This document shows positions 61,319 through 64,000 of a stretch of DNA of 64,000 bases, in pieces. Under the pieces are notes generated by a model that searched no databases, was not told where the DNA came from, and saw only the letters and a list, made by a program, of their open reading frames with translations. This DNA comes from Flavobacterium sp. CBA20B-1. GTDB taxonomy: Bacteria > Bacteroidota > Bacteroidia > Flavobacteriales > Flavobacteriaceae. Location of the stretch: the NCBI RefSeq assembly GCF_028473145.1, contig NZ_CP092370.1, forward strand, positions 1,054,001 to 1,118,000. The letters run 5' to 3'. Both the position numbers and the translations under genes were made by a program. Every line of letters starts with the position of its first letter. Positions within the stretch are counted from its first letter, which is position 1.

Positions 61319-61571
61319 ATCTTTTTTTGTTTAAAGCTACAAAAAACAATTTATATTTTGAAATTCTTGCCAAACAAAACCTCTTTCTTTTTTAATGGAT
61401 TCCTTATAATAAACTATCATAGAAAATTGGCTGTTCAATGATATCAAAACCTTACTAGAGCTTTATTGTGTTATAGAATGATTACAAATGAATAACTTTT
61501 TATTCGATACTCCACACTATTCATAGAAATCATGCAACTTATTAGATGATAAAAAAATAACCGATAAAATC
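61319..61571. other. Non-coding AT-rich stretch left of the IS element
   Basis: I see no gene, RNA or strong hairpin in these ~250 bases. They are the left flank of the IS982-family insertion and the likely upstream region of the GIN lipoprotein gene. Confidence 0.4.
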
Positions 61572-61579
61572 TATTTTTA

Positions 61580-62555
61580 ACCCCTGGTGCATTATTAAAC
61601 GAGATTAATTTTTAGGTTGTTAATATTTCTATTAAACACAAATTTATTCAAATATTGAATAGTTGTCAGTGTTGTAATTTTAGCCAGAATTCTTGTTTTA
61701 AATCCTTCAAAGGTCTTTGCGTAATTTCTTCTAATCATAAATTGGTCACACAATTGTGAGAACAGAGTTTCAATTCTTTTTCTATATTTTTTGAAATGAT
61801 AAAATTGAGGTTTATAACCTTTTTGATTTTTTCTTTTCGGAGTTTCTAATTGGATATTGACCTGGTTAAATAAATCAAGTTGAATGGTTTGTGAAAGATA
61901 ACCTTTATCTCCAAGTAAAACACAATCAGACATTTGCTTTCTTATATCCTGCAAATAATGAATATCGTGGACAGAGGCAGGAGATAAATCAAAACTTTGA
62001 AAAACACCAGAAATTGAGCAAACAGCGTGTAATTTATAGCCATAAAAATGTAAATTTTGTGAAGCACAAAATCCCTTGTTGGGAATGGCATAATCGACCT
62101 CCTTACATATTTTACTTCTGGAAGAACGTGTTATTTTACACACTTCCAAGGGCATACTATCGACCACAAAATAGTTTTCAAACTCATTAAATTTTTTTAC
62201 CATTTTCATTCTGATTTCTTCGATAAATGGAAATAATTTTCTTTTTCTTCTGTTGTAAACACTTCGCTCAATTTTAGATTCAATTTCAAAACCCTTAATT
62301 TCTCTAAATAGCTGATGTTCAGAATCAATCGATTTAAATTCTGACAAGATTATTAAACTAATTAATTCAATATCAGATAGTTTAGGCTTTATTGGTTTAA
62401 AATATAAATTCTCTTTTTCCGAAATTTTCCGCAATTCCTTCAAAATTAATTTGTAACTTGCTTCTAAGTTGCTCATGATTGTATTTGATTGTCAGTCAAT
62501 ACAATATACTACTTTTTTGTATCTTGAGCAACTTTTTATATAATGCACTACGGGT
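61580..62555 (-). mobile_element. Complete IS982-family insertion sequence
   Basis: 976 bp. Terminal inverted repeats ACCCCTGGTGCATTAT (61580-61595) and, read inward from the right, ACCCGTAGTGCATTAT (62540-62555), 14 of 16 identical. An exact 8-bp direct repeat TATTTTTA flanks it (61572-61579 and 62556-62563), the target-site duplication of one insertion event. It contains one intact transposase gene. Recent enough that both ends and the duplication are unchanged. Confidence 0.9.
61595..62476 (-). CDS. IS982-family transposase
   Basis: 293 residues, full length. N-terminal helical domain (SNLEASYKLILKELRKISE...KPKLSDIELISLIILSEF), then a DDE catalytic core: FVVDSMPLEVCK (first Asp), VLLGDKGYLSQ (second Asp), and KKYRKRIETLFSQL (Glu). 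GYKLHAVCS and RRNYAKTFEGFKTRI are typical of IS982/ISPg-type enzymes. The stop codon begins at the inner end of the left inverted repeat. Confidence 0.92.
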   Translation of the reverse strand: MSNLEASYKLILKELRKISEKENLYFKPIKPKLSDIELISLIILSEFKSIDSEHQLFREIKGFEIESKIERSVYNRRKRKLFPFIEEIRMKMVKKFNEFENYFVVDSMPLEVCKITRSSRSKICKEVDYAIPNKGFCASQNLHFYGYKLHAVCSISGVFQSFDLSPASVHDIHYLQDIRKQMSDCVLLGDKGYLSQTIQLDLFNQVNIQLETPKRKNQKGYKPQFYHFKKYRKRIETLFSQLCDQFMIRRNYAKTFEGFKTRILAKITTLTTIQYLNKFVFNRNINNLKINLV

Positions 62556-62649: not shown

Positions 62650-62971
62650 GTAGTGCGATTTTTTGTTTAAATAAAGGCTTCGCTAGATTCTGTTCGTCGG
62701 TACAGACTTTTGCCGTTTACCCCGCCTGCCTGCTGGCTCATTCGCTAAAAATGTCCACTGGACATTTTCTTTACGCTCTGTGCTTTTAGTGCATACCTCA
62801 CGATAAACCACCTTGCCATGTACTAACGATTCGGATTGTTAGTCCGCTCGTAAGAGACTTGCACCCTCTGGAAAAATAACACCCCGAAAACTTGGTTCTT
62901 AATACTAAATTTTTATTTTTTAACTATTTGAAAAGCTTTCGGGGTGTGTCCTGCATATGCAGGGCACACAC
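62650..62971 (-). other. 5' portion of a group II intron (domain I remnant), minus strand
   Basis: Read on the minus strand from about 62971: GTGTG-type 5' end, a stem CACCCCGAAA / TTTCGGGGTG (62881-62890 and 62938-62947), GAGGGTGCAAGTCTC, ACGAGCGGACTAAC, CATGGCAAGGTGG, TCGTGAGGTATGCAC, a perfect 9-bp hairpin AAAATGTCC/GGACATTTT (62748-62768), and GTACCGACGAACAGAAT. GGTGCAAGTC, GTGAGG and GACGAACAGAA occur in that order in domain I of bacterial group II introns. No maturase gene or 3' domains follow; the left end is lost near 62650, about 90 bp from the IS. A 28-base near-perfect palindrome (62944-62971, core CCTGCATATGCAGG) lies at the 5' end. Confidence 0.55.
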
Positions 62972-63103
62972 AAGGTATTTATGAAATGGCGGCTAAAGTG
63001 CTAAAAACAAACGAAGTGCATTTAATGAGCTTCTGTGCTAACACGAAAGTTTCAGTTTCCAAAACCACCACTTCATAAATACCCGAACCGTTATGGGCAA
63101 GCT
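62972..63103 (+). repeat. attC-like imperfect palindrome, left core interrupted
   Basis: The left arm GGTATTTATGAAATGGCGG (62974-62992) pairs with CCACCACTTCATAAATACC (63065-63083), 17 of 19 positions. A ~72-base variable loop lies between. The right core GTTATGGGCAAGCT (63090-63103) follows. On the left the matching core (AGCTnGCCCAT) is absent and the group II intron 5' end stands instead. The large size, conserved stem and core next to a gene start resemble integron attC sites, although the core GTTATGGGC differs from the classic GTTRRRY. Confidence 0.55.
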
Positions 63104-63148
63104 AAAACGACAGAAACCTTAAATTAAACAATTCAAACAAATAGAAAA

Positions 63149-63751
63149 ATGAAAAAAACAACTACCAAAATTGCAGTCGGACTTTTTACTTTATTATCAA
63201 TCGGACTAACTTCTTGTTCTGAAAAAGAGCCAACCCGAGATGAAATTGTAAAGAAAAATGCGGAAGAGTATATTAAGTCAAAAATGAACGACCCTGAAAG
63301 TTATGAATTCGTAAAAATTGAATTGGTTGATTCCGTATTATATAGTGACAATATTGAATACAGAAAAGAAAATTTCAAGAGCGATATGGAATACGACCAA
63401 AGCTCACTAGAACGATTAGAGAGATACAATACTGAAATTCCATCTATGTATGACGAACAAGAAGTAAAAGAATTAAACTCTAAAATTGAAAAAAGTAAAA
63501 AAATACTAACTAAAATTGACTCATTAGAATCTGAACTTGGCGATAGAAAAAATGAAGTTGCATCATACACGTATATCTTTAGTTTTCGCGGTAATAATGC
63601 TTTAGGTGCAAAAATTTTAAATGAATATGCAGTACAAACCAACCCAGCACCTGAATATAAAATCATCAATATGACAGATGACAAAGACAAAATGTACCTT
63701 AACCCAAATGATTTTCCTGGATACAGAGAAATGATTGATAAAAATCTGTAA
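63149..63751 (+). CDS. Lipoprotein carried as a cassette between attC-like sites, unknown function
   Basis: 200 residues. Lipoprotein signal with lipobox LTSC (Cys about 23). Mature N-terminus is helical (TRDEIVKKNAEEYIKSKMNDPESYEFVKIELVDSVLYSDN); a central coiled coil (about 75-130, EQEVKELNSKIEKSKKILTKIDSLESEL) and a C-terminal strand-rich part (VASYTYIFSFRGNNALGAKILNEYAVQ) follow. The NDPESYEFV pattern occurs in many small Bacteroidota lipoproteins of unknown role. It begins 45 nt after the core GTTATGGGCAAGCT and ends 3 nt before the inverted core AGCTAGCCCATAA, the layout of an integron gene cassette. Confidence 0.7.
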   Translation: MKKTTTKIAVGLFTLLSIGLTSCSEKEPTRDEIVKKNAEEYIKSKMNDPESYEFVKIELVDSVLYSDNIEYRKENFKSDMEYDQSSLERLERYNTEIPSMYDEQEVKELNSKIEKSKKILTKIDSLESELGDRKNEVASYTYIFSFRGNNALGAKILNEYAVQTNPAPEYKIINMTDDKDKMYLNPNDFPGYREMIDKNL

Positions 63752-63754
63752 AAA

Positions 63755-63767
63755 AGCTAGCCCATAA
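63755..63767 (+). repeat. Left core of a second attC-like site, interrupted by an intron
   Basis: AGCTAGCCCATAA is the inverse of the core at 63091-63103 (AGCTTGCCCATAA when reversed), 12 of 13 identical. The remainder of this site is not found next to it; a group II intron 3' end begins here instead. Confidence 0.55.
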
Positions 63768-63853
63768 TCGATTAAACTGCCCTGCCAGAAACTAGCAGGG
63801 AGAGCCCCTCTCACACCACCGAGCGTCCGGGTCACGTACTCGGCGGTTCGCAA
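63768..63853 (-). other. 3' end of a group II intron (domains V and VI), minus strand; rest off the right edge
   Basis: Domain V candidate at 63815-63847: on the minus strand ACCGCCGAG pairs with CTCGGTGGT (one G-U), with an upper stem GTACG/CGGAC (one mismatch). The G-U replaces an A-C mismatch on the plus strand, so the RNA is read from the minus strand. GTGTGAGAGGGGCTC follows, then a domain VI hairpin CCCTGC/GCAGGG (63780-63785 with 63795-63800), and an end like TTTAATCGATT. The order and wording match the 3' ends of bacterial group II introns. Its maturase would be to the right, outside the window. Confidence 0.55.
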
Positions 63854-64000
63854 AATGATGTATTAAATTCGATGTAATATCCGTGTTTAATTTTTTGAAA
63901 AGAATTTTGAAAGTGAAATTTATTTCGTCCTTGCATAAAGCTATATACATTTTTTATTTATATTTTAGTGGTGCAGCGAGTGCATGGGTTTTGCAAAATC
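63854..64000. other. AT-rich stretch at the right edge, presumably intron interior
   Basis: No gene is recognisable. On the minus strand this leads into the domain V candidate and should be domain IV of the intron if that call is right. A GC-richer patch (GTGGTGCAGCGAGTGCATGGG) starts at about 63970. Confidence 0.35.

Follow-up and report, generated by a model that had tools for sequence, protein, structure and literature searches.

An integron-like cassette system in Flavobacterium sp. CBA20B-1 and its relatives, probably served by Xer-like tyrosine recombinases

The window, a stretch of 64,000 nucleotides (C1:1054001-1118000) in the 3.04-Mb genome of Flavobacterium sp. CBA20B-1, contains near its right end a one-gene cassette lying between two intron remnants. 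The features considered below are listed with their window positions or, outside the window, with C1 coordinates.

61595..62476, minus strand: DDE transposase gene of an insertion sequence, adjoining the intron remnant (Pfam DDE_Tnp_1, 5e-22)
62688..62969, minus strand: degraded 5' end of a group II intron, in pieces 62688-62718, 62721-62780 and 62785-62969
62970..63090, plus strand: attC-like recombination site, arms 62974-62992 and 63065-63083, matched by covariance model R1
63090..63103, plus strand: cassette 5' core GTTATGGGCAAGCT
63149..63751, plus strand: cassette gene, 200 aa, lipoprotein-like N-terminus
63755..63766, plus strand: 3' inverse core AGCTAGCCCATA, interrupted by the next intron
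63767..63866, minus strand: degraded 3' end of a group II intron, 83% identical to full-length introns
C1:1160504-1161568, minus strand: tyrosine recombinase, 355 aa, at an array end ~43 kb past the window

A first-pass annotation of the window had described a palindrome with a terminal core, a single lipoprotein gene and an inverse core beginning 3 nt past the stop codon of that gene. These elements were borne out: the 19-nt arms pair at 17 of 19 positions, the core is GTTATGGGCAAGCT, and the only gene of the cassette encodes a lipoprotein-like product, for which no Pfam family was found at E 0.001. The left edge of the palindrome does not belong to an R'' box of the site itself: the bases up to 62969 derive from a degraded group II intron, of which they form the 5' end. 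With the intron omitted, GTTATGGGCAAGCT pairs with its own inverse core at 13 of 14 positions (by eye). The attC-like site presumably ends at the crossover G^TT (63090/63091). The neighbouring insertion sequence has a 10-bp inverted repeat at 61553 and 62562. At 63959-64000, and onward in L031 960-1770, a degraded relative of the end of a gene-less cassette (CCGCCGCCGC/GTTACC) and a broken gene were noticed by eye 3' of the window cassette.

By fold energy alone the window palindrome is unremarkable (z -1.3 and -1.7), 19 of 200 shuffles of the top strand and 13 of 200 of the bottom strand being at least as stable. Within the window GTTATGGGC, with one mismatch permitted, had 14 matches versus 10.1 expected, which is chance level. 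Since its own fold is no better than that of these shuffles, the case for the window palindrome rests on its relatives. R1, derived from an alignment of 17 other sites, matches the window site at 62955-63105 with 65 bits (E 7e-12), and this family membership raises the palindrome above chance.

The window contains no integrase, as had been noted at first pass. The genome scan proposed there located one with an array ~43 kb past the window edge, among 11 Phage_integrase matches in the genome. Starting ~170 bp upstream of the integrase and divergent from it, the array extends on the plus strand to ~C1:1189.4k. Read by eye, it consists of ~13 cassettes, each starting with GTT and a core and ending with the reverse complement of that core, with a mismatch in some. 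Core and inverse core pairs recognized by eye include GTTACCTGC / GCAGGTAAC, GTTGCCCAC / GTGGGCAAC, GTTGTGTGC / GCACACAAC, GTTGTGGTGC / GCACCACAAC and GTTACCACC / GGTGGTAAC; a further pair, GTTATGGGC / GCCCATA[intron]AC, is broken by an intron (by eye). The cargo, with 10 proteins scanned, includes an HTH_3 antitoxin-like protein, two GmrSD-type genes, DUF4184, DUF1706, a dioxygenase and a glyoxalase, and two of the 10 were without a family. A gene-less cassette extending from G^ATGTAGCG to CGCCCCG^ occurs in four copies and four contexts in this array; two more arrays of the genome, at ~C1:1.752-1.772 Mb and 2.430-2.443 Mb, contain it as well.

Two full-length group II introns, assigned by group_II_RT_mat and D1D4 Rfam matches, interrupt the array next to the integrase. 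One of them encodes an intact reverse transcriptase of 431 aa. The second (L034 10199-11707, minus strand) has its reverse-transcriptase frame broken into two ORFs, one of 227 and one of 274 aa. With the introns omitted, the exon junctions read GCCCATA/ACAAGG and TGCACACA/ACAAGG (by eye), the bottom strand of which is ...CCTTGT/T..., that is, a TTGT/T point. Passages in PMC7923331 describe group IIC-attC introns as inserting at TTGT/T in R'', on the bottom strand and antisense to the cassettes, and both full-length introns are placed in this way. Unlike in that group, the sites occupied here differ from canonical attC, and the introns are typed only as group II. The 5' remnant in the window is 92-97% identical to the two full-length introns; the alignment of its last piece extends 7 bases into the exon, which by eye restarts at 62970. 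Each remnant retains one matching junction side, at the same site point as in the full-length introns, and the AGCTAGCCCATA side of the junction resembles that of the full-length copies. From their position at the TTGT/T point, group II introns, a second kind of element, thus appear to treat these sites as attC. The window cassette, its sites interrupted by intron remnants, is an outlier and a stranded member of the system.

Another element that appears to target the attC-like sites is ~2.4 kb long and present in the genome in three near-identical copies (L334 7105-9555 and 12098-14545; L335 6452-8780), which adjoin such sites or sit inside them. It carries a tyrosine recombinase and a second gene, IS91-type transposase-like by eye.

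The 17 aligned sites share a consensus structure of 19 pairs, 13 of which, in the L-box and the inner stem, show changes on both sides. The sites follow the canonical attC layout, a hairpin of R'', L'', L' and R' ending at GTT, and depart from the canonical R' consensus, GTTRRRY fitting only 13 of 157 cores. The core had been called unusual at first pass for its AT between GTT and GGGC; unusual it is, but the AT is not special, the bases after GTT being variable and cassette-specific, with pairing to the 3' inverse core of their own cassette as the main constraint on them.

In integrons the 5' core of a cassette matches the cassette's own inverse core, and this is likewise so here: most cassettes of the arrays open with GTT and a cassette-specific core and close with the reverse complement of that core, after which comes a hairpin with an L-box stem of its own. 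Cassettes were measured between consecutive sites (157 at 16 loci, with 24 matches lacking clear boundaries left out). All six bases after GTT matched the own inverse core in 119 of the 157, at least five in 132, and the mean was 5.29. With shuffled core partners the mean fell to 2.10 (maximum 2.39 over 200 shuffles), and the two halves of one palindrome match at a mean of 2.11 of 6 core bases. The largest array (G068) supplied 88 of the 157 cassettes, 83 of which reached at least 5/6; at the other loci together 49 of 69 did so. The script failed at L082 (0/7), at the own locus (0/2), at L080 and L089 (0/1 each) and at L092 (1/3), for which missed intermediate sites are a possible cause. By eye the own array pairs despite the script's 0/2, and the first L082 core meets an inverse core over 10 bases. 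Core pairing reaches position 14; position 11 is A in 152 of 157 cores and almost never has a pairing partner. Detection of cassettes by exact matches was dropped for this site-based pairing, control trinucleotides giving little contrast and TTG scoring as high as GTT.

Cassettes have a median length of ~650 bp and hold mostly one gene, in one orientation. The longest ORF was forward in 129 of 157 cassettes, reverse in 6 and absent (<50 aa) in 22, and a second ORF was present in 28. In the median the ORF starts 29 nt past the core and stops 16 nt before the end of the inverse core, with a coding fraction of 0.92. In the G068 array, 67 proteins yielded matches to 21 Pfam families, each family in a single member, so that at least 46 of the 67 are without a family.

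In DNA folding of the 132 matched cassettes, stability was higher for the rebuilt circle site than for its array counterpart in 127 cases (R-box pairs: 10.2 versus 3.2). The bottom strand was computed to be stabler than the top strand in 96 of the 132.

The recombinase gene stands at one end of its array. At type-A loci, to which the own locus belongs, all R1 matches (E <= 0.01) are divergent from the integrase; matches were present at 19 of 28 loci. At type-B loci the matches are all co-oriented with the integrase and downstream of it (6 of 6 loci). Several type-A loci without a match are cut by contig ends; three (L126, L130 and L134) had no R1 match in the ~18 kb upstream that was searched. 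The six type-B loci L089-L094, considered as negative controls, were rejected in that role, as they carry arrays and integrases. In the named collection, for which at least 80 loci were returned, 13 of the 49 loci scanned had profile matches. Eleven of these 13 were of the co-oriented arrangement, including those of Algibacter onchidii, Seonamhaeicola aphaedonensis and Flavobacterium aciduliphilum; one type-A locus was divergent, and Algoriphagus aestuarii had a single match upstream, on the opposite, unexpected strand.

An attI-like site, with a motif ~ TTGCGTATATTTACGA/GTT read by eye from type-A loci, lies between the integrase and the first cassette, also at a type-B locus. At 19 of 28 type-A loci the first core was found upstream of the integrase, 135-188 nt from its start, and an inverse core of at least 9 exact nt follows within 5 kb. 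The first core reads GAT instead of GTT at two loci, the own and L081. The consensus was scored on the same loci from which it was read, and the score of the own locus, 11, is within the shuffled range (up to 13).

Identical cassettes at attI and elsewhere have their breakpoints at GTT. At L090 an 849-bp cassette is present at attI and internally, the two copies being 100% identical and both bounded at GTT. L089 holds four copies of a 475-bp cassette, 99.8-100% identical, one of which adjoins the integrase. The cassette at attI of L077 (G201) is 97% identical to an internal cassette of G068, which belongs to a different genus. L127 and L128, from different families (G733 and G746), have 2.2 kb with integrase and attI in common (99.87%) and diverge within the first core; this may reflect recent horizontal transfer or contamination, which are indistinguishable here.

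In the AlphaFold model of the own integrase (mean pLDDT 84, residues 330-343 poor) the catalytic half is nearest, in sequence and fold, to XerA and archaeal Xer recombinases (4a8e, 5hxy), together with IntI4. Xer recombinases resolve chromosome dimers, as stated in PMC8138268; unlike them, the gene here adjoins cassette arrays. Residues 1-66 (C1:1161371-1161568, minus strand) are modelled with confidence as a beta-beta-alpha-beta-beta-alpha domain that bears a WS-x-W/Y motif and may resemble the HARP domain. A small N-terminal domain is carried by many of the integrases; it had no Pfam match in nine proteins, and the best PDB match, at E 0.2, was not significant. In a tree of 43 rows, from which the L101 ORF (a wrong gene) was left out, only IntI (100/99) and type A (93/94) are single clades and the Xer branches are long; the tree speaks neither for nor against an exclusive ancestor of types A, B and IntI.

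Full-length type-A relatives, 57-63% identical, were found in 12 further genomes among 249 Flavobacteriaceae, one of them with two internal stops. A second integrase group, 39-47% identical, occurs in other genomes, and 29 of the 249 genomes have a match overall at E <= 1e-70. Among 295 Bacteroidia genomes 16, the own included, have type-A relatives at E <= 1e-80, and one has a canonical IntI (TIGR02249 over cut-off); across the phylum canonical IntI was found in 84 of 296 genomes, only one of them labelled as of the same class. Of 14 array-bearing genomes chosen for a profile search, 12 had an integrase at E <= 1e-50 and two had none at that threshold. Plasmids held no close relative (96 records matched, all below 60% identity, the best near-full-length match at 41.8%), nor did viruses among the at least 80 loci listed, where segments reached up to 49%.

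R1 matched 220 of the 249 sampled Flavobacteriaceae genomes at E <= 0.001. It is not specific to the class: across the phylum it matched 120 of 296 genomes, including 75 from outside the class, some with canonical IntI. Around canonical IntI genes of the phylum, seven stretches of 20 kb were scanned with the site profile and had no match. A search for canonical attC sites found none in these seven stretches nor in six arrays of the own type, its filter being perhaps too strict. Similar arrays, divergent from short integrases of the same type on the same contig, were seen in another class of the phylum (L304, L305 and L313 of G292, G284 and G415); G284 has a canonical IntI too, on another contig. 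The integron-like system is widespread in flavobacteria and their relatives.

The suggestion that the window holds a cassette of a Bacteroidota integron-like system is thus supported: the palindrome is neither unique nor tied to the same gene everywhere, its family surrounds many different genes, and an integrase with an array is present in the same genome. In all likelihood we are dealing with an integron-like capture system in which a dedicated tyrosine recombinase of Xer/IntI type, devoid of the IntI-specific insertion, would serve the arrays, and the window cassette is one member. The recombinase would excise and insert cassettes as circles. One strand of the circle would fold, R'' pairing with R' over ~14 positions and L'' with L', and the folded circle would be joined at attI by the recombinase. 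In the array the R box is broken, because the R' there belongs to the next cassette, and the full site would exist in the circle only; insertion is therefore predicted to be easier than excision.

A rival reading, which we judge improbable, holds that the cassettes are units ending in short inverted sequences and swapped as double-stranded DNA by XerC/XerD or by the array recombinase, the hairpins being incidental. It would fit the closeness of the recombinase to XerA and the placing of every gene between inverted repeats. It leaves unexplained why L box and inner stem show compensatory changes between units, why the inverted core has a conserved non-pairing position, why cassettes share a single orientation, and why a dedicated recombinase and an attI-like motif stand at one end.

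That these are ordinary integrons, with IntI recombinases and standard attC sites that were overlooked, is slightly less probable still. The architecture is the same: an integrase at one end with an attI-like site, mostly one-gene cassettes in one orientation, gene-less cassettes, and hairpin sites with R and L boxes and a probable crossover at G^TT. IntI4 is among the nearest structures, R1 also matches genomes with canonical IntI, and the own integrase scores 223 bits (cut-off 220) with NF040815 ('site-specific tyrosine recombinase/integron integrase'). Against this, TIGR02249, which has a cut-off of 265 bits, gave 202 bits for the own integrase and 196-207 bits for five relatives, the matches being broken into pieces that skip the IntI insertion. 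The insertion is absent from all 45 aligned integrases (31 + 14) and present in eight canonical IntI compared with the 31; in the comparison of the own integrase with IntI4, 41 IntI4 residues remained unmatched. The rarity of GTTRRRY cores, the cassette-specific R-box pairing to ~14 positions and the extra N-terminal domain of many integrases likewise differ from integrons as known. A reading of the sites as structured repeats, be they terminators or intron targets, that are dispersed between genes and play no part in recombination would suit the intron insertions and the unremarkable fold energy of the single palindrome, and is hardly credible given the self-matched cores, the identical cassettes at attI and internally, and the integrase at the array end.

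At the level of sequence the capture system proposed here behaves like an integron, yet its recombinases fall outside IntI and its sites outside the canonical attC consensus. We infer recombination, and with it what seems to be an integron run by Xer-like, non-IntI integrases. More tentatively, and with somewhat less than even confidence, these may form a second lineage of integrons: Xer-like recombinases devoid of the IntI insertion would recombine cassettes as folded single strands, possibly with the N-terminal domain in its stead, and the cassette-specific R box would be a self-key; since this key is complete only in the free circle, capture would be favoured over loss.

The extra domain in the catalytic part of IntI is given in PMC9024848 as a distinguishing mark of integron integrases, and PMC8138268 states that it is essential for integron function, though incompletely conserved. 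In Bacteroidetes proper one complete integron, in Salinibacter ruber, is named in the account of IntegronFinder 2.0 (PMC9024848), and Bacteroidota are mentioned among integron-bearing phyla, without detail, in PMC9668308. A search of the literature outside subscription papers and preprints found no description of integrons in Flavobacteriaceae. A recombinase without the supposedly integron-defining domain may explain why such systems have rarely been reported in flavobacteria and their relatives. If it is true that recombinases lacking the extra domain run integrons, the requirement for this domain becomes directly testable, and a large cassette repertoire, with sites in most of the Flavobacteriaceae genomes sampled, would come into view.
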